A DNA stretch of 48,259 nt, taken from positions 1 to 48,259 of IMG/VR virus record IMGVR_UViG_3300023220_000133; one strand, given 5' to 3'. The notes below the pieces were generated by a model. The model did no database searches, was not told the DNA's origin, and was given only the letters and a program-made list of their open reading frames with translations. Origin of the DNA: a virus. The translations under genes and the position numbers were made by a program. Shown piece after piece: positions 3,282 through 46,456 of this stretch. Positions within the stretch are counted from its first letter, which is position 1. The number at the start of each line of letters is the position of its first letter.

Positions 3282-3612
3282 GAGCGGATTTAAGGCTGCT
3301 GGTAAAGCAATCGGATGGCTTGAGGGTGACACCATTAAAACAATCATACAAGCCTACCTCGACACCTGTGATCCATGGTGCTATGATATGGATGAAGCGC
3401 CGAGGGATGGGCGTGATGTGTTTTTGACGGATGGTCATGGAGCGTATGCGGCGGCGGTGTGGTCTGACGAACCTTTAGTGTCCCTTGGTGCTTGGCTTGT
3501 TGACGATATTATTGATGAGGATGGAGAATTATTGTTTGCAGAACTCTCATTTAAGCCGAGGGCATTTATGAAACCAACACCACCCAAACAACAGTTAAAC
3601 CGGGAGGGATGA
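3274..3612 (+). CDS. Hypothetical protein
   Basis: 112 residues, starting with GTG at 3274, seven bases before the preceding stop; AGGAGG lies just upstream. Residues 33-80 (PWCYDMDEAPRDGRDVFLTD, then AAAVWSDE) follow the pattern W..M..APRDG..VLL......... common to a small domain in phage and prophage proteins of unknown function. A 32-residue helical N-terminus precedes it. Soluble, acidic. Confidence 0.75.
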   Translation: MDESGFKAAGKAIGWLEGDTIKTIIQAYLDTCDPWCYDMDEAPRDGRDVFLTDGHGAYAAAVWSDEPLVSLGAWLVDDIIDEDGELLFAELSFKPRAFMKPTPPKQQLNREG

Positions 3613-25154: not shown

Positions 25155-27527
25155 ATGGCAAATAGATTCTTTGATCCGGTGCCTCAAGCATTAAATGGTG
25201 TAGGAACTTCTCTGGCTGATGCCGAGCTATTCTTTTTTACGTCAGGAACCAGCGCACCTCAAGACACATTTTCGGATAATAACCTAACCTCTGCAAATGC
25301 AAACCCCGTTGTCGCTGATGGTGACGGGCGATTTCCTAATATATTCCTTAAAGACGCCACTTATAAAGTTCAACTCAAAACGACTTCCGGCACCCAGATA
25401 TGGGAGAGGGACCCTGTTTCCGGGTTAACTGATGCTGTCAGGGTGGTGACAAACATCGCCGCAATGAAAGCTTTGAATTCATCATCATTGACAGAGCATC
25501 AGATATTCGATGTCACAGGATACACATCAATTGGAGACGGCGGCGGAGGCCAATTTTATTGGGATAGTACATCGACATCAACTGTTAATCTCGGCACTAT
25601 ATTTGTACCAGACGATAACGCTACAGGAAGATTTAAGCGTATCTTTATAGGGTCTAAACTATGGCTTGACTGGTTTGGTGCCGTTGGTGATGGAAATTTA
25701 TCGGCAGGAACGGGGACCGATGATAGTGCGGCTATCCAGAGCGTTTTAGATACATTAAACGGATTTGGCGGCGGGACCGCTCAATTGTCAGCGGATAAGA
25801 TATACAGAAAGGCTGACACATCGGCAACATTGATAACCTATAGCAACACAGTAATAGCGGGGGAGGGCAATAGCTCTGTCCTTTATCACGACGACAAATC
25901 GACAAACCCTAGAATGGATATGTTGAGTTTCGAGGACACCTCAAATGTCAGTATCGAAAACATGCGTATATCTGGAAATCTCCTGATTGATTTGACCGAG
26001 ACAAATCAGTCGCAAACCTTGATCGGCGGTAATATTACAGACTTTAATATGAGTAATGTTAAAATTGAGAACATGAGATTCATGGCGACCTCTCTTAACA
26101 ATGTCATTAACGGGACTGTTATTAATTGCACTCTTGACACGATAGCACGAGACGGATTTAGGTTTACAAACTCCAGCAATATCAAGATTACCGATAACTA
26201 TTTAAAGAATGTATCAGATGACAGCGTTGCATTACATACCCGCGATGCTGATACCCTTCCTGGCGGCGGCCATATTGTAAGCAATAATGTATTCGAGGCA
26301 TGTCAGGGCATCAAGGTTCTCGGGGCAAAGATGCTTATCATCACAGGAAACATTATGCGCCGCACGGTGAGGTCTCCCATCAGCATACAATTCCCCGACA
26401 CAGCCACCGAGGGTAACACCACAGTTTTCGATATAAAGGTTTGCGATAATATCATCACCGATTCCTTCGGGTCATTTGGTACGGATAATGTCATTCTGAT
26501 TAAATCGGCAGGGCGGTCAACGGGGGCGCTTTCTAATCAGCCCGGCGTCGACGCGCCCACCTTCCCATATAATTACACGAACAATCTGGATAGCGGCACC
26601 AATGTCAAGGTTGGTATGTGGTCTATCTGCGTGGAGAATAATCAGATTTCAAGAACACTTCCTGCGGTGACAAATTATTCTGACTACGGTTACGGTTTAT
26701 TATTTGACAAAGAGGAGTCGGGATTTTTCTACGATCCTGCAATCACAGAAACTGATTTCCAAGTTCACGGTATTAATGTGGAGGCTCCCGCTTATGGGGT
26801 CAGCGTTTGCTTTAATAGCATATCAGGCTGCGGTACGGGCTTCACAGCTATATTCTTTCAGGTCAACGGATCAGCTAATGTTCAAGACTTTTCCTCTGCC
26901 AAGGTTCAAGGGAATACTATTATTGACTGCCCCGGAACAGGGTTTTCGTGTTCTGATGTAGGCACAGGAAATGGCTCAAAGCAGATTGTTTTATCTGACA
27001 ATATATTTGATTTAGACCCCTTTTTCAGGGCGGCCACACACAACTCAGACAATACATGGTCGAGCATTGGTAGCGTGCCGGGCATTAAAGTAGGAAGCAA
27101 TATTGGCATTGTTGGCGGGGGTAATGTTTTCAAAAACCTTGCTGACACTGGTTTCCAAAATGCAGAGGTTAACGAAACAGGGTTGAATATTATTTATTGC
27201 GACTTTGTGGGTGCCGGAGACAATGCGAGCAATAAGGGTGTTCGGTCTATTCCTAAAGCCAGGGGAAACCTTATACTTCCTATTACCGGTGATCCCACAT
27301 CGTCAACGTATGGAAGTATTGAAAATGATGTCTTGACAGTCAGCAACACTATCCCGTCGGCGGGGAGATATGTCAGCGGTCACTTTGTGGCCCATGGAGA
27401 CCCTTCCGTTGTCGGAGGCGGTGGTGGTAACGATTACATCATTGCAGGCTGGCAGAGGCTGACAACAGGCAACGGTCACGTCCTTAATACTGACTGGGTA
27501 GAAACCCGAACCTTGACAGGAACCTAA
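25155..27527 (+). CDS. Tailspike 1 (head-binding domain plus beta-helix)
   Basis: 790 residues. Residues 1-95 (MANRFFDPVPQALNGVGTSL, then ANANPVVADGDGRFPNI, YKVQLKTTSGTQIWERDPVS) form the virion-binding domain used by many podovirus spikes. A short linker domain (IFDVTGYTSIGDGGGGQFYW) follows. Residues about 175-600 are a right-handed beta-helix (FGAVGDG start motif; repeats such as NVSIENMRISGN, NVKIENMRF, NIKITDNYLKN). The C-terminal 150 residues probably form the trimer end. It recognises or cleaves surface polysaccharide; catalytic residues cannot be assigned by eye. Confidence 0.87.
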   Translation: MANRFFDPVPQALNGVGTSLADAELFFFTSGTSAPQDTFSDNNLTSANANPVVADGDGRFPNIFLKDATYKVQLKTTSGTQIWERDPVSGLTDAVRVVTNIAAMKALNSSSLTEHQIFDVTGYTSIGDGGGGQFYWDSTSTSTVNLGTIFVPDDNATGRFKRIFIGSKLWLDWFGAVGDGNLSAGTGTDDSAAIQSVLDTLNGFGGGTAQLSADKIYRKADTSATLITYSNTVIAGEGNSSVLYHDDKSTNPRMDMLSFEDTSNVSIENMRISGNLLIDLTETNQSQTLIGGNITDFNMSNVKIENMRFMATSLNNVINGTVINCTLDTIARDGFRFTNSSNIKITDNYLKNVSDDSVALHTRDADTLPGGGHIVSNNVFEACQGIKVLGAKMLIITGNIMRRTVRSPISIQFPDTATEGNTTVFDIKVCDNIITDSFGSFGTDNVILIKSAGRSTGALSNQPGVDAPTFPYNYTNNLDSGTNVKVGMWSICVENNQISRTLPAVTNYSDYGYGLLFDKEESGFFYDPAITETDFQVHGINVEAPAYGVSVCFNSISGCGTGFTAIFFQVNGSANVQDFSSAKVQGNTIIDCPGTGFSCSDVGTGNGSKQIVLSDNIFDLDPFFRAATHNSDNTWSSIGSVPGIKVGSNIGIVGGGNVFKNLADTGFQNAEVNETGLNIIYCDFVGAGDNASNKGVRSIPKARGNLILPITGDPTSSTYGSIENDVLTVSNTIPSAGRYVSGHFVAHGDPSVVGGGGGNDYIIAGWQRLTTGNGHVLNTDWVETRTLTGT

Positions 27528-27528
27528 T

Positions 27529-29397
27529 ATGGCAAATAGATTTTTCGATCCAGTACCACAGGCCTTGAACGGTGTGGGCACGTCTCTTGCAGATGCTAAA
27601 CTGTTTTTCTTCAAGGCCGGGACCAGTACGCCAGAGGACACCTTCTCAGATAACGCTTTGACCTCTGCAAATGCAAACCCCGTTGTCGCTGATGGTGACG
27701 GGCGATTTAGCGACATATTTCTCAAAGCCGCAAATTATAAAGTTCAACTTAAAACTACGGCTGGTGTGCAAATATGGGAGCGCGATCCGGTTAACGGATC
27801 AACACCCTCTGATTTCATCGAAACCATTGCTTTACTTAAGGCTGTGCAATCCGCTGACTTGGTGAATAATCAGGTGGCTTACGTGACAGGATATTATGCC
27901 GCTGGTGATATTGGCGATGTGACCAGTATTTATAAATGGGTTTCCTCAAGCTCAGCTACTGATGACCTTGGGGTGACAATTATCCCAGACGATTCATCCG
28001 GTAATGGTCGCTGGATATTACAGAACCTTCAAAACGACCGCCAGTATGGCACTAAGGGCGACGACGGTACAGCGGAAAAAACCCGCATCCAAAACTTCTT
28101 TAATAACGGCGGGGAGCTTTTGCTGAAAACCGGCATTAACCGAATAGTTGCTCCTGTAGCGCTACCTTCTAACACAACGCTAACCTTTGAGGCGGGATCG
28201 GTCATTAAAGCCACATCAGGCGCATCGCACGTTTTAGGTCTTGGTTCTGATGGTGTGGAGAATGTCACGATCATAAATGCAGAGGTAGACGGAAACAGCG
28301 TTCTGGGATTAAATGGTATTGGTCTTAGCTCAACCACAGCAACCCATGCCAAAAATATTAACCTGATTGCACCCGTAATTCGTAACTGCCTGCGCTCTCC
28401 AACAACAAGTGGAGGCCGGGGCCTTACCTTTCAGAATGGCGTTGAAAGCGGCACGGTAACTAATCCTAAGGTTTACGACTGCACGACTGGATATGATATG
28501 AATGGAGACACCATAGCAAGCGGGTCTGGGGGTCAAAATCCTGTACTGGGTATTCTGATAACCAATGCCTATGTAGAGGGCTGTCAGGAAGCAATCTCCA
28601 TGTTCTCGGATGGCACAACCACGAACGGCTCAAATCCGCCAACGCAACCAGATTCAGTACAATACACAATCAATAATATCTTTGTACGCAATTGCGGTAG
28701 AACCACAGACACAACACTATACTCTGGAGGGGGGACCGCCGACGATCAAGATGGCGGCGTAGTCGTCTCAAGGCGCGGGCGTAACGTCCAGATTAATAAC
28801 ATGACCGTCTTTAATGATAACACCTACACAATTGGCGGCCTATTTAGGGGAACCGGTAATAATATCAGCATTAACGGCTTCAATATGTGGGGCAAGGTCG
28901 AGGCCGTTGTTGTTGTTGGATCGGCGCAAAACCTTCTACCTTCGTCTGATGCTAACGATCCATCTTATGGGCTAAACATCAGCGGTCGCTTCCACAGCAC
29001 AGCAACCAACATTGTTGACGTAAGGATTGCCACCGCAACAAACTACATCACAAGCTGCATCTTTGATATTGAGGTTGATCAGTTTAATTCGGCAAATGCT
29101 ATCTTGCTGACCGCCTCTAATTTCCGCGATGACAGCTTCATTATCCTGACCGACCTTGTGACTATGAAAAAGATTTCAGGGAACTTGTTGCGTGTTCAAT
29201 CTGATAATAATACACTGGCGACGGCTAGTGATAAGATAACACATTGTGTCGCAATGGAATTCACGAGAAACATTGTAACAGGTGCCAACTGCCGAGTTGA
29301 TTACAGCACGACATCGGGCGGAGCAGGTTCGTCTGCTGGGTTCTTTCAGGTTGCGGTCGGCGGCGTCAATAAAAAGGTCGAATATTTCGATATATAA
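27529..29397 (+). CDS. Tailspike 2 (paralogous head-binding domain, different receptor domain)
   Basis: 622 residues. The first 90 residues are nearly those of tailspike 1, and one DNA run (25287-25333 versus 27657-27703 approximately) is almost identical. The linker is related (VAYVTGYYAAGDIGDVTSIY), but the beta-helix body is unrelated (IIPDDSSGNGRWILQ, then YGTKGDDGTAEKTRIQNFFN, GVENVTIINAEVDGN). It shares one base of spacing from tailspike 1, so both are probably made together and may give two receptor specificities or a branched spike. Confidence 0.85.
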   Translation: MANRFFDPVPQALNGVGTSLADAKLFFFKAGTSTPEDTFSDNALTSANANPVVADGDGRFSDIFLKAANYKVQLKTTAGVQIWERDPVNGSTPSDFIETIALLKAVQSADLVNNQVAYVTGYYAAGDIGDVTSIYKWVSSSSATDDLGVTIIPDDSSGNGRWILQNLQNDRQYGTKGDDGTAEKTRIQNFFNNGGELLLKTGINRIVAPVALPSNTTLTFEAGSVIKATSGASHVLGLGSDGVENVTIINAEVDGNSVLGLNGIGLSSTTATHAKNINLIAPVIRNCLRSPTTSGGRGLTFQNGVESGTVTNPKVYDCTTGYDMNGDTIASGSGGQNPVLGILITNAYVEGCQEAISMFSDGTTTNGSNPPTQPDSVQYTINNIFVRNCGRTTDTTLYSGGGTADDQDGGVVVSRRGRNVQINNMTVFNDNTYTIGGLFRGTGNNISINGFNMWGKVEAVVVVGSAQNLLPSSDANDPSYGLNISGRFHSTATNIVDVRIATATNYITSCIFDIEVDQFNSANAILLTASNFRDDSFIILTDLVTMKKISGNLLRVQSDNNTLATASDKITHCVAMEFTRNIVTGANCRVDYSTTSGGAGSSAGFFQVAVGGVNKKVEYFDI

Positions 29398-31536: not shown

Positions 31537-31576
31537 CCGAAGAACTACCACACCAGCGGCTATAACACTCGGAGGC

Positions 31577-31605
31577 TTGACGGTCTCCATTTTTTTGTGT
31601 ATATT
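31577..31605 (+). promoter_or_regulatory. Promoter of RNA module 1
   Basis: TTGACG at 31577-31582, 17-base spacer, TATATT at 31600-31605. Expected start near 31612. Same spacing as the two promoters that follow. Confidence 0.55.
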
Positions 31606-31611
31606 GAATTT

Positions 31612-31698
31612 GCGAGAATAAGTTTCTTATGGACTATAACACCCTCACCTTTCATGAGGTTAAGCGCCGCCTGATTTTCAGAGTCCGGGCGGCGTTTT
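31612..31698 (+). ncRNA. Putative small RNA 1 (about 87 nt)
   Basis: Bounded by a promoter at 31577-31605 and a hairpin terminator at 31664-31698. Internal hairpins: ATAAG with CTTAT, and CCTCA with TGAGG around CCTTTCA. GGACT near 31631 can pair with AGTCC (31682-31686) in the terminator loop, which would form a pseudoknot or compete with termination. No ORF with a ribosome binding site. Either a free small RNA or a leader whose terminator can be regulated. Confidence 0.45.
31664..31698 (+). terminator. Intrinsic terminator T1
   Basis: CGCCGCC at 31665-31671 pairs with GGCGGCG at 31688-31694, followed by TTTT. Terminates module 1, and would also terminate readthrough from the late operon. 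Confidence 0.7.
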
Positions 31699-31700
31699 CA

Positions 31701-31729
31701 TTGACACCCCTTCATTTAATATGTAATAT
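31701..31729 (+). promoter_or_regulatory. Promoter of RNA module 2
   Basis: TTGACA at 31701-31706, 17 bases, TAATAT at 31724-31729. It begins three bases after terminator T1. Expected start near 31736. Confidence 0.65.
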
Positions 31730-31735
31730 ATGACT

Positions 31736-31821
31736 GTCTAGACCATTTGAGATTCATGTTTACGGATCATCGAATAATAATCAGCCCCGCCTCTTAACAA
31801 TGCGTACACGGGCTGATTTTT
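31736..31821 (+). ncRNA. Putative small RNA 2 (about 86 nt)
   Basis: Bounded by promoter 31701-31729 and terminator 31779-31821. Almost the same length as RNA 1, but no clear sequence similarity to it. It starts with the palindrome GTCTAGAC and has an unstructured AU-rich centre. No start codon with a ribosome binding site. Confidence 0.45.
31779..31821 (+). terminator. Intrinsic terminator T2
   Basis: AATCAGCCCCG (31779-31789) pairs with CGGGCTGATT (31809 on, one bulged C) before five T residues. The minus strand version is followed by ATTATTATT, so it may also stop leftward transcription. Confidence 0.7.
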
Positions 31822-31823
31822 CG

Positions 31824-31852
31824 TTGACCTTTCTCCGTATCATTGATAATAT
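31824..31852 (+). promoter_or_regulatory. Promoter of RNA module 3
   Basis: TTGACC at 31824-31829, 17 bases, TAATAT at 31847-31852. Starts just after terminator T2. Expected start near 31859. Confidence 0.6.
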
Positions 31853-32042
31853 ACGCATATGAACTTTGACCCGTACGGTCTTTGCTAACAACAGAGCCTC
31901 CCACACCTCTCGAATGAATCTGCGCACCCTGGCGAGGTCAGTAATAACTACGCGAAGTACCTCAGTCTCAGAGAGTGGCGCAAGCTAAGTCCTCGGTATC
32001 AATTCCGGGTTTCGTGTGGTTTTAAATTTAAAGGAGAATATC

Positions 32043-32099
32043 ATGACAGAGCAAGAACGGTTAATCGAGGGGCGCCTTGATATTGAAGAGCGCGTCTGA
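32043..32099 (+). CDS. Possible leader peptide inside the structured RNA
   Basis: 18 residues (MTEQERLIEGRLDIEERV) behind a good ribosome binding site (AAAGGAGAATATC). It ends before a repeated GAGCGCG (32087 on and 32109 on) and the densely paired 3' half. It may be a leader peptide, or the remnant of a truncated helical protein. Confidence 0.3.
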   Translation: MTEQERLIEGRLDIEERV

Positions 32100-32324
32100 A
32101 TTCACTAGAGCGCGGGGCTGCATAGCATCCGCATATTAAGACCCTACCAAAGGGCAAACTAGCGCTGTACCCTCTGCATGCACGGTGCCGCCATAAAGGG
32201 GTGATCCTTCGGGATTGGGTGTTTACAGCTGGACTAAGACCCTGATGACGCGCTGATGCTAGATATCGGGACCGCCAGACACCCCTCGTTTCCTCGTAAG
32301 AGGGCTTAAATCCTAGCAATAGGT

Positions 32325-32362
32325 AGCCCCTGCATTATCTTAGGATTTTGTGGGGGCTTTTT
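32325..32362 (+). terminator. Intrinsic terminator T3, pseudoknotted with an upstream stem
   Basis: AGCCCC at 32325-32330 pairs with GGGGCT at 32353-32358, followed by TTTTT. Its 5' strand lies in the loop of the 8-bp AAATCCTA/TAGGATTT stem, so the two stems are interleaved. They would form a 3' pseudoknot or alternate with each other. Confidence 0.65.
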
Positions 32363-32587
32363 AATACAGTTGCGCCGCTCAAAGGCAGGGAACCAATGGC
32401 GGCGCGGGAGAGTGAAGCGAGGTGGGGAAACGCCCCGAAATCAGAACATGATTATCTTATATGGAACATACAGTATATGCAAGGGTAAAGTTAACTAGTG
32501 ACCCACCTGAGCCACATCTTAGGACTTGCAGTTACGTATGACGGAACATGCCAACGCCGCCATGCTACACGAAGCAACCATTTATTT
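32363..32587. other. Gene-free stretch between convergent transcripts
   Basis: No convincing gene. It has a perfect GCGCCGC (32372-32378) / GCGGCGC (32399-32405) stem, a GGGG-AAAC-GCCCC hairpin near 32424-32436, and the palindrome-like CATACAGTATATG near 32468. On the minus strand TTGCAT-17-TAAGAT, ending near 32455, could be a promoter antisense to the structured RNA. Plausible for a replication, packaging or regulatory site, but nothing decides which. Confidence 0.4.
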
Positions 32588-32911
32588 TTAATCGTGATGA
32601 CCTTCATTGTATTGCTCCCAATTATCTATAGCCATTTGACGGATATCTATCCCCCAATGCTCGTTAAATGCCTCTAAGCTCATTTTGTGCCTCGCGTAGG
32701 GGCCATGTTGATGTATATCAGGGTCAAGGCCCACAACGTACCTATGATCCTTCCTGCTGCCATAAGGCTCGTGATGTGGAGAGCATGGCTTTCCTGTGAT
32801 TTCACACCCTCTATCACGTACCCAGTTATGGTATCTCTGAAGCTCAGCGGTCATCTTATTGCGCTTGATTTTTGTCTTGCCGTGTTTTGGTGCCTTGGGC
32901 CTGTTAATCAT
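32588..32911 (-). CDS. DUF968-like HNH-fold nuclease
   Basis: 107 residues. Basic N-terminus (INRPKAPKHGKTKIKRNK), then CEITGKPCSPHHEPYGSRKD, VVGLDPDIHQHGPYARHKMS, FNEHWGIDI. The C.iTG..p..pHH......R..D...vpl....H..gp...h pattern is that of the small phage recombination nucleases (DUF968/Ref-like) often found with NinB. Last gene of the leftward operon; likely processes branched DNA. Overlaps the HNH gene before it by 8 bases. Confidence 0.7.
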   Translation of the reverse strand: MINRPKAPKHGKTKIKRNKMTAELQRYHNWVRDRGCEITGKPCSPHHEPYGSRKDHRYVVGLDPDIHQHGPYARHKMSLEAFNEHWGIDIRQMAIDNWEQYNEGHHD

Positions 32912-39953: not shown

Positions 39954-39975
39954 CTTCTCTCTCCTTATTTACCTC

Positions 39976-40003
39976 ACAATACCACACCCTATCATAGTGT
40001 CAA
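39976..40003 (-). promoter_or_regulatory. Leftward early promoter
   Basis: On the minus strand TTGACA at 40003-39998, 16 bases, TATTGT at 39981-39976; start expected near 39969. It shares both hexamers and the spacer length with the rightward promoter at 40039, and the 3' end of both spacers is GGTG-rich. Drives the recombination operon. Confidence 0.75.
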
Positions 40004-40038
40004 GCATTATTATTTTAAGGCTTAACCACATTATGTTA

Positions 40039-40066
40039 TTGACACGGTGTTTATATGGTGTATTGT
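40039..40066 (+). promoter_or_regulatory. Rightward early promoter
   Basis: TTGACA at 40039-40044, 16 bases, TATTGT at 40061-40066; start expected near 40073, a few bases before the tRNA-like element. Thirty-five bases of AT-rich DNA separate it from the leftward promoter, leaving room for operators. Confidence 0.75.
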
Positions 40067-40077
40067 AATGGTGTTGG

Positions 40078-40210
40078 TCGAGAGGTGTAGCTCAGTATGG
40101 TTAGAGCGCATCAGGAGATGGTCGGTGGCCTAGTACAGGATTGATAAGGTGGTGAATTCCAGCCTTTGAGATTACGGCCCGTCGTTGGTTCAAGTCCAAC
40201 CGCCTCTCGG
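40078..40210 (+). tRNA. tRNA-like RNA with an enlarged central region (possible tRNA pseudogene)
   Basis: Canonical parts: acceptor strand AGAGGTG (40081-40087) with CGCCTCT (40201-40207), extendable by three more pairs outward; T8 and A9; D arm GCTC/GAGC with the GG-containing loop AGTATGGTTA; T arm GTTGG-TTCAAGT-CCAAC at 40184-40200. Between D and T arms lie 76 bases (40108-40183) instead of about 23, and I cannot find a 5-bp stem with a 7-base loop and U33. No CCA is encoded. The base next to the acceptor is C73 paired with G-1, as in tRNA-His. First product of the rightward operon; a decayed tRNA, a tRNA-derived regulator or a decoy. Confidence 0.6.
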
Positions 40211-40233
40211 CTGATAATATAAAAGGAAAAGAC

Positions 40234-40503
40234 ATGACTAGAAGAGAACAGATAGCAAAAAAGATCAGTGCCAAGCGACGCGGTATTGTGGTGAAACTTT
40301 CGGACCACATCAAGCAATCCAAAAGCACGAAGGGCAAGAAGGTCACATATCAAATGATTGCCGACGTTGTAGGCTGCGGAAAGAACCACGTTGCCCACGG
40401 TTTCAGGGTTGATAAGACCATGACTGACAAGATGCTTGTAGAGACATTATACGCCGTTGAATACATAACCGGTGAAAACATAGACCATATACTGGAGGGA
40501 TAA
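40234..40503 (+). CDS. Basic putative DNA-binding protein
   Basis: 89 residues, MTRREQIAKKISAKRRGIVV, then KVTYQMIADVVGCGKNHVAH, ending MLVETLYAVEYITGENIDHI. The middle has the spacing of a helix-turn-helix (YQMIADVVG and CGKNHVAHGFR). First protein gene behind the rightward early promoter, with AAAAGGAAAAG upstream. A Cro-like role at the divergent promoters is possible. Confidence 0.6.
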   Translation: MTRREQIAKKISAKRRGIVVKLSDHIKQSKSTKGKKVTYQMIADVVGCGKNHVAHGFRVDKTMTDKMLVETLYAVEYITGENIDHILEG

Positions 40504-40505
40504 AC

Positions 40506-40793
40506 ATGACACGTAAAATTACCAGAGAGGATTTAGTTACAGCCTTTGCGCGGACAGAGTTACACCGCGATCAAATACAGGGGTTTACCTATGCTAATAA
40601 AGAGGAGGGGTACGACCAACATGTAGCCCGAGATTTACTCTGTGAACATAGCAGTCAAGCCTTCTGGATCGCCCGCGATGATGGGACCGTCTCCAATTAT
40701 GATAAGCTTCACGGCGAGATGTTGATTGCCATTGAAGAACGGCAAATGCAGCTTGTAGCCAATGAGTTAAACTCTTTATTACAGGAGCAATAA
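40506..40793 (+). CDS. Hypothetical protein
   Basis: 95 residues, MTRKITREDLVTAFARTELH, then LLCEHSSQAFWIARDDGTVS, EEL-like helical C-terminus. It lies 3 bases after the preceding gene. No family recognised. Confidence 0.65.
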   Translation: MTRKITREDLVTAFARTELHRDQIQGFTYANKEEGYDQHVARDLLCEHSSQAFWIARDDGTVSNYDKLHGEMLIAIEERQMQLVANELNSLLQEQ

Positions 40794-40794
40794 A

Positions 40795-41004
40795 ATGGAC
40801 ATACTCACACTAAAGGAAATACAGGCCATTAACCCGCCCCTGTACCTCACAAACGTTAGACGCATGGCACAGGTAACTTACACTGCCAGACAAGCGGAAT
40901 CCGACGCCATCAAAAACAAGGCTCGCATTGCAAAGTGGGGACCATTGAAGGCATCACTGCGGACACTCAGGCAGGCAACCACTAACGTGTTGAGGTGGGC
41001 ATGA
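40795..41004 (+). CDS. Hypothetical basic protein
   Basis: 69 residues, MDILTLKEIQAINPPLYLTN, then VRRMAQVTYTARQAESDAIK, basic helical end (RTLRQATTNVLRW). Start follows the previous stop by one base. The TGA overlaps the ATG of the nuclease gene. Confidence 0.6.
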   Translation: MDILTLKEIQAINPPLYLTNVRRMAQVTYTARQAESDAIKNKARIAKWGPLKASLRTLRQATTNVLRWA

Positions 41005-41363
41005 AAAATAAATCAGCATCACAAAACGGACGCCGCAACCGCCAGAAGGGCCAGGAGTTCGAGCGCGAGGTGGTAGCCATGTTAGAAGAGAGTGCCGTTG
41101 CCGCAGAGCGCATCAAGGGCAGCGGATATCAGGCTAAGGACCACAATGATATACGGATAACAGAGAAGTCTCTCACGGGGCTTGAAATCGAATGCAAGCG
41201 CAAATCAAAAGGTTGGGCAGGATTATATAAACTCATGGAGCAAAAGGACGTTTCTATCGTTGCTCTCCGGGCCGACAATAAGCCCGCGCTGGCTGTCATA
41301 GAATTCAAATTTCTTTGCAGTCTTTTATACGCATTTAAAGATGAAATGAACGGTCTGGAATAG
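41001..41363 (+). CDS. PD-(D/E)XK Holliday-junction-resolvase-like nuclease
   Basis: 120 residues from ATG 41001. RRNRQKGQEFEREVVAMLEE, then AAERIKGSGYQAKDHNDIRI, GLEIECKRKSKGWAGLYKLM. The conserved E of the first helix, the ND of the D strand and the ExK-type EIECKRK are the active-site residues of archaeal Hjc-like and phage resolvases. Expected to cut branched DNA during replication or packaging. Start overlaps the preceding TGA. Confidence 0.78.
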   Translation: MKNKSASQNGRRNRQKGQEFEREVVAMLEESAVAAERIKGSGYQAKDHNDIRITEKSLTGLEIECKRKSKGWAGLYKLMEQKDVSIVALRADNKPALAVIEFKFLCSLLYAFKDEMNGLE

Positions 41364-41387
41364 ACATAATAGAAACATAAGGAGCGG

Positions 41388-41507
41388 ATGATGAACGAAG
41401 AATTGGAAGCGTGGGCAAAAACAAACGGCATTGACAATCTGGAAAAAGAGGAATACGGCGGCAACCACTTAGATTTATTCCCTGACACAATCGAGGGTGA
41501 ATTATGA
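41388..41507 (+). CDS. Very small acidic protein
   Basis: 39 residues, MMNEELEAWAKTNGIDNLEK, ending DLFPDTIEGEL. AAGGAGCGG precedes the ATG at 41388, and its TGA overlaps the next ATG. Function unknown. Confidence 0.55.
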   Translation: MMNEELEAWAKTNGIDNLEKEEYGGNHLDLFPDTIEGEL

Positions 41508-41764
41508 CCAGACCATTAACACAAACAACCAAGTGTAAGCACGACTTTACCCCATGGGAGAGAATAAGTCCCGAAGTTAGGGGAGAGCCTGCCACATGGA
41601 GCGCCACAAGAAAATGTAAAGACTGTGATGTCGAGGAAGTTTCATGCAGGGAGATTAACTGGGTAAACATTGATTATTCGCTCAATCACATGCGCCATAA
41701 CCATGTAGACACAGTACCGATGATCATAGCACACCCAATATTATGGAAGGCAACAGCACAATGA
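41504..41764 (+). CDS. Small putative zinc-binding protein
   Basis: 86 residues, MTRPLTQTTKCKHDFTPWER, then RKCKDCDVEEVSCREINWVN. C11, H13 with C39 and C42 could hold one zinc, as in small phage proteins beginning C.H.F..W. The rest is soluble. Coupled by overlaps on both sides. Confidence 0.6.
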   Translation: MTRPLTQTTKCKHDFTPWERISPEVRGEPATWSATRKCKDCDVEEVSCREINWVNIDYSLNHMRHNHVDTVPMIIAHPILWKATAQ

Positions 41765-42183
41765 AAACATCAGATGAAATACTGAGGGAGTTTTTCCGAG
41801 AATTGAGCCGATCCGTCGGCAATTGTGAGGGTTTGCACGTTGCTGAATGCGTTCCAGCGCTGAATGATGAGTTGCTGACCGCAGGCTACCACATCACACC
41901 CATAGAGCCAACAGAGAGATTCCAAGAGGGTTTCAAAGCCGGTGAATGCCATGCCACATCATTCTTCATCAACAGGGAGCCAACAGAGGCACAGATAGAG
42001 GCGGCATCAGCTAAATTAGTTAATTTCTTGTGTGGAACATCGTACAGAAAAAAGCTGCCCATGTTTTCGACGTGGGGGATAAAGCCCTCTCATAAAAGTA
42101 TTAACGATGTTACCGCCGAAAAGGTTGCTAAAAAAATACTCACAGCCGCCCTCACAGGTAATACTAGACAAGCTGATAGATAG
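41761..42183 (+). CDS. Hypothetical protein
   Basis: 140 residues from ATG 41761, which overlaps the preceding TGA; the open frame begins 18 bases earlier without a better site. MKTSDEILREFFRELSRSVG, then GFKAGECHATSFFINREPTE, AQIEAASAKLVNFL. The last part has a P.E..I.AA..... helix common to many phage proteins of unknown function. A promoter overlaps its last codons. Confidence 0.65.
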   Translation: MKTSDEILREFFRELSRSVGNCEGLHVAECVPALNDELLTAGYHITPIEPTERFQEGFKAGECHATSFFINREPTEAQIEAASAKLVNFLCGTSYRKKLPMFSTWGIKPSHKSINDVTAEKVAKKILTAALTGNTRQADR

Positions 42184-42193
42184 GGTATATATT
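42165..42193 (+). promoter_or_regulatory. Promoter for the 90-nt RNA
   Basis: TAGACA at 42165-42170, 17 bases, TATATT at 42188-42193. Seven bases later is the G at 42200 that opens the paired GGGGCG, so transcript start and structure start would coincide. Confidence 0.55.
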
Positions 42194-42199
42194 AAATAT

Positions 42200-42290
42200 G
42201 GGGCGCTACTCTTGTAGGGCCTTGCCGGTGAATACCTTTTTAGGATGCAACGCTGGCAGATTGCAGGACGCTCCTTGGCCTGCCGCCCCA
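42200..42290 (+). ncRNA. Putative 90-nt structured RNA or leader
   Basis: GGGGCG (42200-42205) closes with CGCCCC (42284-42289). Inside: CTAC-TCTT-GTAG (42206-42217), TGCAA (42246-42250) with TTGCA (42261-42265), and alternatively GCAGG (42263-42267) with CCTGC (42279-42283). The last two cannot form together, a switch-like feature. No open frame with a ribosome binding site lies within it. No terminator follows, so the RNA is either processed or acts as the 5' leader of the helicase genes. I do not match it to a known riboswitch or tRNA. Confidence 0.45.
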
Positions 42291-42350
42291 CATCCTTTCA
42301 TAGGGTAAAATCAAGGAGGGATGTTAAACACTGAAACAAGGATATTTCAC

Positions 42351-42560
42351 ATGACAGACGCTACCACCAGACCTATTAAATACAAATATTATTGCAGCTT
42401 TTCTTGCAAGGGAGGTTTTGGTTTTGTTGTCGTAGACCTAGATGGCATTATCAGTACAAGCGAAGACATCCAAGTAGTTCGCGAGGGGATCAAGGAAAAC
42501 CAAAATCTTGATGTTCTCCCCATAATCATATCCTTTCAGCTATTGGATAGTAAGACATGA
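42351..42560 (+). CDS. Hypothetical small protein
   Basis: 69 residues from ATG 42351 (AAGGATATTTCAC upstream). The in-frame ATG at 42321 has AGGAGGG directly against it, too close to work well. MTDATTRPIKYKYYCSFSCK, then GGFGFVVVDLDGIISTSEDI, IQVVREGIKENQNL. Beta-alpha pattern. First protein after the 90-nt RNA. Not recognised. Confidence 0.6.
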   Translation: MTDATTRPIKYKYYCSFSCKGGFGFVVVDLDGIISTSEDIQVVREGIKENQNLDVLPIIISFQLLDSKT

Positions 42561-42742
42561 GTATGAGGTGGGGCATCGAGGATCAGGTTGAAGCCGCCGA
42601 AAGGGTAGCTCTTCTTGAGGATTTAGTGGTTCATTTATGGAGAAACACATCATATCCATTAGCCACAATGACGGCAGACGAGAGAGAACTGTTTGATAGC
42701 ATCCTGCGTGCTGCCGATCCTAAGGCGGAGAATGACTCATGA
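42557..42742 (+). CDS. Hypothetical small helical protein
   Basis: 61 residues, MSMRWGIEDQVEAAERVALL, then TADERELFDSILRAADPKAE. Predicted helical. Starts with ATGA overlap and ends overlapping the helicase start, so it is tightly coupled to it. Could be a helicase accessory protein (position only). Confidence 0.6.
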   Translation: MSMRWGIEDQVEAAERVALLEDLVVHLWRNTSYPLATMTADERELFDSILRAADPKAENDS

Positions 42743-44103
42743 GTGATCTATTCAATCTTGAGGCAGAGCAGGCATTGCTTGGCGCTGTCTTCAATAATAC
42801 CGAGTGCCTTGATCATATTGGGTATCTAAAGCCCGAGCATTTCATGGAACCCGTGCATGGTGATATATATCAAGATTGCGTAGGACTTCACAGAGAAGGT
42901 AAGTCGGCAAATCCTGTATTCATCTACAACAAGTATAAACATGATCCGCGCTTAAGTGAAGAGGAAGTTGCTGGCGGAGCGAAGGATTATATTGTCAGAC
43001 TTCATGCTAGTGCAGCTACACTTATCAATTCCCCTGAATTCGCAGCCACTATCTATGATTTATATCTCAGAAGGTGCATTGCTAATGATTGCGAAACTTT
43101 GGCCGGTATGGTTTATGATCTTGATGTTGATCCAGTCGACGAACTCACTCAAATGTACAATGCCATTGTAGACGGGGCAGAGATTAAATCAACCAACATT
43201 CGCACCCTATCCCAAATCATGGACACAACACTTGCGGGCCTTGAGGATATCAGGCACAACGGCGGCATGTTGGGGTTAAAGACAGGACTTGCAGACCTCG
43301 ATAGGATGATAGGGGGCTTACGATCTAAGCTCTACCTGATAGGCGGTCGCCCTGGTATGGGTAAAAGCGCCTTAATGCTCTTCCTTGCTCACAGCACAGC
43401 CTTACAGGTTCCTACTCTGGTATTCTCTCTTGAGATGCCCGGCGAGGAAAACGCAACACGCGCCATTGCTATGCAGTCAGCTATTGGAAACATCGGCACT
43501 ACGTCTGTTTTGAACTATCAGGATATTGATAACAACAATCTGTGCAAAACCCAGTATGAGCACATGGTAGAACATGCAGGTAATATTAAAAACATACAGC
43601 TAAGAATATGCGACGACGCCAACATGACGGTGCAGAAAATCAGGCGAATATGCAAAAGCATCAAATCAAAGTATGGTCTTGGCGCGGTGTATATAGATTA
43701 TCTCCAGCTATTGGCCCATGAAGACCGGCACAAAGGCATGTATGCACAGGTCACAGAGAACTCAGGAGCCTTGAAGCGCTTACAGAGAGAGTTAGACGTG
43801 CCTATGGTGGTCCTGTCGCAGCTTTCTAGGGGGGTAGAGCAGCGAGACGACAAGCGCCCGTTCATGTCTGACCTAAAAGAGAGTGGTGCCATTGAGCAGG
43901 ACGCAGACGTTATCCTGTTCCCATTCAGGGAAGAGTATTATCTTGAACGAGAAGAAAGCCCGGAAAATAAACAGAGACTTATAGACATTGCCAACAGCAT
44001 TGAGATCATCGTAGCCAAGCAAAGGGCAGGGCCTACAGGTTCATTCGTTGCTGGCTGCAATATTGGTGCTAATTCTTTCTGGACAAAGGAGAGGCATCAA
44101 TGA
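42739..44103 (+). CDS. DnaB-type replicative helicase
   Basis: 454 residues, near the usual DnaB length. N-terminal domain: EAEQALLGAVFNNTECLDHI, KPEHFMEPVHGDIYQ. RecA-like domain from about residue 180: TGLADLDRMIGGLRSKLYLI, Walker A GGRPGMGKSALM, then SLEMPGEENATRAIAMQSAI, Walker B AVYIDYLQLL, motif 4 SQLSRGVEQRDDKRPFMSDL, KESGAIEQDADVILF, and the closing R..GPTG. It unwinds DNA at the phage fork as a hexamer. The O-like initiator follows with a 4-base overlap. Confidence 0.95.
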   Translation: MSDLFNLEAEQALLGAVFNNTECLDHIGYLKPEHFMEPVHGDIYQDCVGLHREGKSANPVFIYNKYKHDPRLSEEEVAGGAKDYIVRLHASAATLINSPEFAATIYDLYLRRCIANDCETLAGMVYDLDVDPVDELTQMYNAIVDGAEIKSTNIRTLSQIMDTTLAGLEDIRHNGGMLGLKTGLADLDRMIGGLRSKLYLIGGRPGMGKSALMLFLAHSTALQVPTLVFSLEMPGEENATRAIAMQSAIGNIGTTSVLNYQDIDNNNLCKTQYEHMVEHAGNIKNIQLRICDDANMTVQKIRRICKSIKSKYGLGAVYIDYLQLLAHEDRHKGMYAQVTENSGALKRLQRELDVPMVVLSQLSRGVEQRDDKRPFMSDLKESGAIEQDADVILFPFREEYYLEREESPENKQRLIDIANSIEIIVAKQRAGPTGSFVAGCNIGANSFWTKERHQ

Positions 44104-44891
44104 CAGGATGGATAAAACTTCATAGAGCCGCTATAGATCACTGGTGCGCGTCGGAGCCTGAGTTTCTGGCAGTGTGGATTAGGTTACTCTGTGAGGCTAA
44201 CCACAAGGCCGTTAAAACCATAATGAACGGTGCGCCAGTTAATATAGATAGGGGCCAATTAGTCTATGGCAGAAAGGTATTTTCCGAGCGGTCTGGTGTC
44301 AGTATCTCTAAATTAAGGCGTATCATTCGTGTGTTAACCGATGAGGGCATGATTGACCAACTAAAAACCAACAAATACTCAGTTATTACAATACTTAACT
44401 ATGATTTGTATCAGGGTGTTGACCAGCCAAAAACCAGCAGATCGCCAGCAGATCGCCAGCAGATGACCACATCTAAAGAATGTAAAGAAGTTAAAGAAAA
44501 GAAAGAGCCTAAAGATAGCCTTGAAGGTTTCGATGAATTTTACGATGCTTACGCCTACAAGAAAAACAGAGGACAGGCAAAAAAGGCTTGGGCAAAGATA
44601 CCTCTTGCAGACCATTCTTTAGTTATTGAAGGGGCAAATACGGCGGCAAGAATAGGTGGAGAGTTTAGGCCATATCCTGCAACATGGTTAAATGCGGAGG
44701 GCTGGCTCGACGAGCATGAAGGCCAATTAGTAAATGGTGAACTCCGAACGCTTTGGGTTCATGCAATAGAAATTCACAGGGAGAAAAAAAGATGGCCAAT
44801 AAATCCAAATTATTACTTCATGGGGAAACTATCAGAATGCCCCGACGATTTGAGAAGCGCCAATGCAGACCTATTTCCATCGGTGAATTAG
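44100..44891 (+). CDS. Replication initiator, O-like (winged helix)
   Basis: 263 residues. N-terminal winged-helix region: WIKLHRAAIDHWCASEPEFL, RGQLVYGRKVFSERSGVSIS, KLRRIIRVLTDEGMIDQLKT. This is the pattern of phage replisome-organiser and lambda O-type proteins. The middle (residues about 112-140) is encoded by iteron-like repeats and a purine-rich tract. The C-terminus (YDAYAYKKNRGQAKKAWAKI, YPATWLNAEGWLDEH) resembles the DnaB-contacting end of O/DnaD-like proteins. It probably binds the origin within its own gene and recruits the helicase. Confidence 0.8.
   Translation: MTGWIKLHRAAIDHWCASEPEFLAVWIRLLCEANHKAVKTIMNGAPVNIDRGQLVYGRKVFSERSGVSISKLRRIIRVLTDEGMIDQLKTNKYSVITILNYDLYQGVDQPKTSRSPADRQQMTTSKECKEVKEKKEPKDSLEGFDEFYDAYAYKKNRGQAKKAWAKIPLADHSLVIEGANTAARIGGEFRPYPATWLNAEGWLDEHEGQLVNGELRTLWVHAIEIHREKKRWPINPNYYFMGKLSECPDDLRSANADLFPSVN
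44434..44520 (+). other. Candidate replication origin: 11-bp iterons plus A-rich tract
   Basis: CCAGCAGATCG at 44434-44444 and 44445-44455, with a third copy CCAGCAGATGA at 44456-44466, followed by a purine-rich, A-rich tract at 44471-44520. It lies inside the O-like gene, as the lambda origin does in gene O. Three tandem units encode the low-complexity SRSPADRQQ region of the protein. Confidence 0.6.
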
Positions 44892-44959
44892 TAAAACCAT
44901 TAATGAAAGAGATAAGGGAGAATATGAATGACCATGAAGGAAATTCCAAAGAAAATTGA
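44792..44959 (+). CDS. Hypothetical basic protein overlapping the initiator gene
   Basis: 55 residues from ATG 44792 (GGGAGAAAAAA upstream), 100 bases inside the preceding gene in a second frame. MANKSKLLLHGETIRMPRRF, then RPISIGELVKPLMKEIRENM. The length and ribosome binding site support it; function unknown. Confidence 0.5.
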   Translation: MANKSKLLLHGETIRMPRRFEKRQCRPISIGELVKPLMKEIRENMNDHEGNSKEN

Positions 44960-45164
44960 ACATACTTGCGATTGTTGTGGAAAGGTTGAAATAACAAAAT
45001 ACACCGATAGTCCAAGATATTGGGATACGGTTGCTGTATACACTACAGGGTATGATGACGGAATGGCGGTTGGTGGATTTGAGGACAAAAAAGAGTTTTG
45101 TGGTAAATGCCACGGAAATTTCAAGGTCATGTTTAAAAAATTCATGAGCGAAGGGCGAGATTAA
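44928..45164 (+). CDS. Small zinc-ribbon-like protein
   Basis: 78 residues, MTMKEIPKKIEHTCDCCGKV, then KKEFCGKCHGNFKVMFKKFM. Two pairs, CDCC and CGKC, can bind one zinc. AAGGGAGAATATGA precedes the start, and ATG 44934 is an alternative. Overlaps the previous gene by 32 bases. Not assigned to a family. Confidence 0.65.
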   Translation: MTMKEIPKKIEHTCDCCGKVEITKYTDSPRYWDTVAVYTTGYDDGMAVGGFEDKKEFCGKCHGNFKVMFKKFMSEGRD

Positions 45165-45553: not shown

Positions 45554-45759
45554 TAGTTTATCCTCTGAATCATGAGATTTAAAATATAGAACAAAGCATG
45601 AGCGAAAGGTGATATACCAAGACCCACTAAAAACCAGTTCACTTTATGGCGTTTAGGTTGGGGGCGATTTTTATATTTAATTTCAACAACCCATCCACAT
45701 CTAGGGCATGTCTTCACGTCCAAAGGGTCATCGCTCGTCTGTTTTGTTTCAATTGTCAT
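45553..45759 (-). CDS. Zinc-ribbon membrane protein
   Basis: 68 residues: MTIETKQTSDDPLDVKTCPR, CGWVVEIKYKNRPQPKRHKV, then membrane helix FLVGLGISPFAHALFYILNL. One CPRCG pair. Its first ten residues belong to a MTxxKQTS family of N-termini seen in four genes of this operon. Confidence 0.65.
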   Translation of the reverse strand: MTIETKQTSDDPLDVKTCPRCGWVVEIKYKNRPQPKRHKVNWFLVGLGISPFAHALFYILNLMIQRIN

Positions 45760-46456
45760 TGGCTTGTCTTTCTAAATGATATTGTTCTGTGCAACCTTTT
45801 AGAGCCTGACTCCAGGCAACACGACTATGCATCTCTACAGCCTTATCGGAGAACCATTGATCAGCCATAGCGTCAGCAATCCCTTGATATGTTTTTGATC
45901 TGTCTCGCCGCCTGTTAGGGCCTGGTGCCATCTTCCATACTTTTTGCTCTCGCCCATCAACAATATTAGTAGGTTCTAATTCCATAAAACCCCTGAGCCA
46001 TAAGCAAGTAGCTTTCTGCTCCCCGTGCCCGTGCTGCCAAGGATGTATAATTTGACTTTGGGGGCGCCCTATTATTTTTTTAGCATGGCCTATCATGATG
46101 GGGTTTTCTATAGCAATCCTTGGAATGTCGGCGTGTAAAAGGCGGCTGAAAAATATAGCGGCGGCTTCCATCTTTTGCCAACGATCCTCGTTTCTCCCAT
46201 TCTCTTTTTTCATGCCTAGATAAAGGTGCTTTGCGCCACTGTTTGACATGTAAGTACATTCAGGGAAGGCAATCATTGCAGACCATTCGCGAGACGATAT
46301 CGCCTCGAATATGTCACCCTGAATATGCTTATCGGTATGAATACCCCTTGAGGGCCTTAAGTCGCATGACCAGGCGTCATGGCCGCGCCGTATCAAGGCG
46401 TCGCGCACAGTGCCGCTCTCTTCGCAGCCGACAAGAATGCTCGTATGTTTTTTCAT
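45749..46456 (-). CDS. Cytosine-methyltransferase-like protein
   Basis: 235 residues. VGCEESGTVRDALIRRGHDA, then WSCDLRPSRGIHTDKHIQGD corresponds to the AdoMet-binding motifs (F.G.G..s..l...G......E/D). IAFPECTYMSNSGAKHLY sits where C5-methyltransferases have PPCQ..S; here it is FPECTY. IAIENPIMIGH matches the ENV/ENP motif. This phage subfamily is shorter than true C5 enzymes and lacks a target-recognition domain, so base modification is possible but not assured. Bases 46161-46259 of this gene reappear inverted at 1-99. Confidence 0.8.
   Translation of the reverse strand: MKKHTSILVGCEESGTVRDALIRRGHDAWSCDLRPSRGIHTDKHIQGDIFEAISSREWSAMIAFPECTYMSNSGAKHLYLGMKKENGRNEDRWQKMEAAAIFFSRLLHADIPRIAIENPIMIGHAKKIIGRPQSQIIHPWQHGHGEQKATCLWLRGFMELEPTNIVDGREQKVWKMAPGPNRRRDRSKTYQGIADAMADQWFSDKAVEMHSRVAWSQALKGCTEQYHLERQANDN

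Follow-up and report, generated by a model that had tools for sequence, protein, structure and literature searches.

Does the one long gap ahead of the helicase genes of this phage hold a functional RNA that is made from a promoter of its own? A sequence-only reading of the locus had proposed as much, namely an own promoter driving a 90-nt RNA closed by its first six bases. The source record is that of an uncultivated virus, an unclassified phage, and all of its 48,259 bases were analysed (hereafter the window). The last two genes of a rightward cluster, 40234-44891, encode a DnaB-like helicase and a DnaD-like loader (Table 1), and the only long non-coding gap of this cluster is the 167 nt of 42184-42350, flanked by ORF 41743-42183 and ORF 42351-42560. 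The other ORFs of the cluster overlap or lie no more than about 30 nt apart, a near-gapless arrangement that assumes the small frame 41391-41507 to be a gene. The element had been placed upstream of the helicase genes, and this is where it lies, since the gap precedes ORFs 42351 and 42557, the helicase and the loader. Replication iterons were sought in 42100-45000, and no convincing repeat family was found.

Two further properties of the record were noted. Its bases 1-110 are an inverted copy, at 99% identity, of 46149-46259 within gene 45749-46456, which points to an inverted end repeat or else to an artefact of assembly. In addition, 25155-25429 and 27529-27803 encode an N-terminal region common to two successive large proteins of 790 and 622 aa (75% DNA identity). 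These two are likely tail spike or fibre proteins that form a pair and have an attachment domain in common.

Table 1. Features at and downstream of the gap, with positions in the window.
Feature	Position	Strand	Measure or match
Promoter-like site TAGACA-17-TATATT, predicted start near 42200	42165..42193	+	10/12 consensus matches
Predicted closed four-way-junction RNA domain	42200..42289	+	MFE -36.7 kcal/mol
Second hairpin over Shine-Dalgarno-like AAGGAGG 42313-42319	42290..42324	+	pair probability ~0.97
AAGGA + ATG 42351, likelier start of first downstream ORF	42338..42353	+	eight bases AAGGA to ATG
ORF, 69 aa, first gene behind the putative leader	42351..42560	+	no known family
ORF, 61 aa	42557..42742	+	no known family
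DnaB-like replicative helicase	42739..44103	+	PHROG 19, E 5.3e-87
DnaD-like helicase loader	44100..44891	+	PHROG 2514, E 2.4e-34

The promoter motifs claimed for the gap are present, with TAGACA at 42165-42170 inside the end of ORF 41743-42183, a spacer of 17 nt, and TATATT at 42188-42193 just past the stop codon of the same ORF. As the site lies where the one long gap begins, it is a fair promoter candidate, and by our own estimate a promoter-like site would fall at such a position by chance in about 1% of cases. The claim of an own promoter thus stands as far as a site matching the consensus at 10 of 12 positions at the gap edge is concerned, whereas its activity and a start at 42200 are what we infer. 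GGGGCG (42200-42205) begins 7 nt beyond the -10 box and, as had been noticed, finds its exact complement in CGCCCC at 42284-42289, 84 bases on.

The coincidence of the predicted transcript start with the start of the stem had been taken as an argument for a functional RNA, and this argument did not survive a chance test in which 40 Markov shuffles of the window were searched for promoter-like sites (10 or more of the 12 consensus bases) with a perfect 6-nt closing complement 60-130 nt further downstream. The shuffles held about 5.7 such sites per strand, 0.375 of which had the complement (about 1 in 15), and in the window itself it was found at one of the 16 sites that the two strands hold together. 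Moreover, complementary bases are present already upstream of the proposed start, as the inverted repeat ATATGGGGCG (42196-42205) / CGCCCCACAT (42284-42293), complementary at 9 of 10 positions, reaches four bases further upstream with one mismatch. The coincidence is weak evidence and not a rare event.

In the minimum free energy structure of 42200-42289, a 6-bp closing stem (42200-42205/42284-42289) encloses a 4-bp arm (42206-42217), a 9-bp arm with an inner hairpin (42222-42259) and a 5-bp arm (42263-42283). Its energy compares with -31.4 kcal/mol in dinucleotide shuffles (z -1.58), and 16 of 200 shuffles (8%) were as good, so that the fold is predicted to be moderately better than shuffled sequence. 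When the flanks are included (42196-42293), z reaches -2.15 on the + strand and -2.12 on the - strand, hence the shuffle statistics do not choose a strand. Energies as low as that of 42200-42289 were seen in 0.04% of 90-nt windows and in none of 230 G+C-matched + strand windows. The frequency of equally stable shuffles, together with the rate at which the start and stem coincide by chance, is what would be expected if an ordinary internal promoter lay in a G+C-rich spacer and the fold were a by-product of composition without function. We consider this somewhat unlikely, as among 88 G+C-rich windows the one at 42196 departs furthest from its shuffles, the hairpin adjacent to the domain deviates further still (see below), and the non-coding G+C content is 61% vs about 46% for the phage.

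Closure by the first six bases, the second part of the original claim, is predicted for a transcript starting at 42200, where the pairs of the closing stem have probabilities of 0.79-0.99, but not for one starting at 42050, where they drop to about 0.4; the closed form therefore depends on a start near 42200. The sequence-only reading had further described two inner stems that share bases and exclude each other. TGCAA (42246-42250) / TTGCA (42261-42265) and GCAGG (42263-42267) / CCTGC (42279-42283) indeed have bases 42263-42265 in common, but they are not comparable alternatives, as GCAGG/CCTGC forms with a probability of about 0.9 and TGCAA/TTGCA with a probability of about 0, a fold constrained to contain the latter being 9.2 kcal/mol less stable. 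A two-state RNA switch, in which the two folds would have similar energy, was rejected on these grounds.

A terminator-like site (a G+C-rich hairpin plus a U-run) was sought on the + strand near 42289-42360 and none was found. As no intrinsic terminator follows the domain, a discrete 90-nt RNA as originally proposed is unlikely, and the RNA would instead run into the downstream genes. A trans-acting small RNA of about 90 nt could nevertheless be imagined from the closed compact fold and from its loop CUCCUUG (42271-42277), which is complementary to CAAGGAG at 42312-42318 and might act against Shine-Dalgarno sequences. We regard this as very improbable, given that the 3' end would then need processing and that neither a family nor a homologue was found. 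Pairing of the loop with the Shine-Dalgarno sequence in cis has a probability of about 0 in the ensemble and was likewise rejected.

Directly after the four-way-junction domain follows the strongest local structure, the second hairpin (42289-42325: z -3.49, with 0.5% of shuffles as good). The AAGGAGG that it covers is poorly placed for initiation because it ends one base before the nearest ATG, 42321, and the frame of ORF 42351, which has its own AAGGA, carries a positive codon score. A cis-acting regulatory leader, being either a translational operator for a phage or host protein or a self-acting antiterminator like HK022 put, would suit both this hairpin over a Shine-Dalgarno sequence and the position of the element between a promoter, which it follows directly, and replication genes. 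The poor placement of the covered sequence and the lack of an Rfam match speak against such a leader, which we find unlikely. Least probable of all is a small gene of 36 codons running through the gap from ATG 42198 to TAA 42307. No stop codon interrupts this frame, and a gene there would leave the cluster without its long gap, but the codon score of the frame is like that of out-of-frame DNA, with 1.2% of real 36-codon gene pieces scoring as low, no well-placed Shine-Dalgarno sequence precedes it, and a transcript from 42200 would be without its start codon. The small gene was rejected on codon usage.

Relatives of the element were sought by several routes. The Rfam search that had been suggested as a check yielded no riboswitch or other family in Rfam 15 at gathering score, and a permissive search of the same release gave one chance match only (E 9.1). 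For 42100-42420, no tRNA was found by covariance model even at E 10, nor by ARAGORN. DNA similarity searches among near and distant phages and plasmids returned nothing above chance, and the exact pattern of the inner part of the element was absent from viral_contigs. No relatives were reached through the flanking ORFs 42351 and 41743, and those reached through the helicase (29-37% identity) had no such element. Relatives of the capsid protein had best segments of up to 59% identity, and a single-sequence covariance model run over the loci and whole records reached via capsid or helicase recovered the window itself only, all other matches having E 1.3 or worse. In named phages with a DnaD-like or DnaB-like neighbour, the gene order around the element was not shared. 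Hence, nothing closely related to the replication module was present in the sequences searched, and as no relative carrying the element was found there is no covariation; this lack of matches says nothing against function. The 8-bp direct repeats ATAGGGTA at 42180 and 42300 could suggest an insertion, a reading that was rejected because, by our own estimate, chance alone would give about 0.4 such pairs in 221 bp, and because a second copy of the element was not found.

A comparable arrangement lies 2.1 kb upstream of the element. There, a 15-bp stem begins at 40073, the predicted +1 of the rightward early promoter TTGACA-16-TATTGT (40039-40066, +), and closes around a 128-nt tRNA-like RNA; this leader (40073-40215) lies just upstream of ORF 40234. 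This RNA matches the Rfam tRNA model with 37.2 bits, over the cut-off, and has a canonical-looking D-arm and T-arm, separated by about 50 additional bases, but lacks a normal anticodon arm; ARAGORN finds no tRNA in it. Like the element, it has a promoter upstream, is predicted to be closed by the first transcribed bases and precedes an ORF with its own ribosome-binding site; in contrast to the tRNA-like RNA, the element at 42200-42289 does not match Rfam tRNA. Kinship of the two was rejected, as sequence similarity between the element and the tRNA-like element (40081) was not above that of shuffles. The mean long-range pairing probability of the first six bases is 0.97 and 0.94 at the two rightward sites, and 3.8% of random positions reach 0.9 or more. 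These predicted closed 5' ends are suggestive and not proof, because the RNA predicted from a promoter-like site at 3359, within coding sequence, is closed at its start to the same degree (0.96), which also fits the view that the fold at 42200 is incidental. We give little credence to a more far-reaching model, in which successive early promoters would start distinct self-closed leader RNAs, e.g., new antiterminators or decay shields, one domain being a tRNA-like cloverleaf that lacks a normal anticodon arm and the other a four-way junction.

Other promoter-like sites of the window were also noted. In 39974-40066, two divergent sites share an identical TTGACA-16-TATTGT, one on the - strand from 40003 and one on the + strand from 40039, and from their sequence and orientation they are probably paired early promoters of a control region. 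The region 31540-32590 (+), about 1 kb with little coding, contains three successive promoter-like sites (31577, 31701, and 31824), the latter two directly behind terminator-like hairpins, as well as a match to abiF RNA at 31781-31817 (34.8 bits, just under the Rfam cut-off of 37; E 2.7e-4) and a terminator-like hairpin at about 32325-32365.

Taken together, the best explanation, which we put forward tentatively, is that the gap encodes the structured 5' leader of an mRNA from an internal promoter serving the replication genes. The promoter would produce a transcript covering ORFs 42351 and 42557, the DnaB-like helicase and the DnaD-like loader, with its first six bases tied into the four-way junction. 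Such a paired 5' end would offer no single-stranded terminus to RppH and RNase E or to equivalent enzymes, and the replication mRNA is proposed to be longer-lived for this reason. The second hairpin, in turn, may hide the stronger, badly placed Shine-Dalgarno sequence and leave AAGGA to start ORF 42351, so that the structure as a whole could stabilise the mRNA or tune its translation. The fold statistics, which are only modest at 42200-42289 and with flanks about equal on the two strands, would count against this leader. At present it stands as a candidate leader in a phage whose replication module had no near relation in the sequences searched. If real, it would add an example of a phage that may protect its replication mRNA against 5'-end-dependent decay by folding the first bases transcribed and, taken with the tRNA-like leader 2.1 kb upstream, would point to a general strategy of this phage. 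It would then be a further structured phage mRNA leader, which is a known kind, and nothing categorically new was found.

Among known leaders, the 5'-terminal stem-loops of the E. coli mRNAs ompA and papA stabilise these transcripts (Belasco and colleagues, cited in PMC3997798), and pairing at the 5' end has this effect because a single-stranded 5' end is required by both RppH and RNase E (PMC3997798). The resemblance lies in an mRNA leader with a paired 5' end, the pairing here being predicted to include the first transcribed base. In ompA and papA, however, the structure is a single hairpin, whereas here it is a predicted 90-nt closed four-way junction. The put RNA of phage HK022, about 70 nt with two side-by-side stem-loops, binds RNA polymerase, and putL likewise lies just downstream of its own promoter (PMC9378689), which agrees with the regulatory leader considered above. 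Both put and our element, the latter by prediction, are structured RNAs that immediately follow a phage promoter within an early operon. On the other hand, put is without a closed junction, and in the Rfam search it showed no similarity to the element; instead of two adjacent stem-loops in about 70 nt, the fold predicted here is a closed four-way junction.
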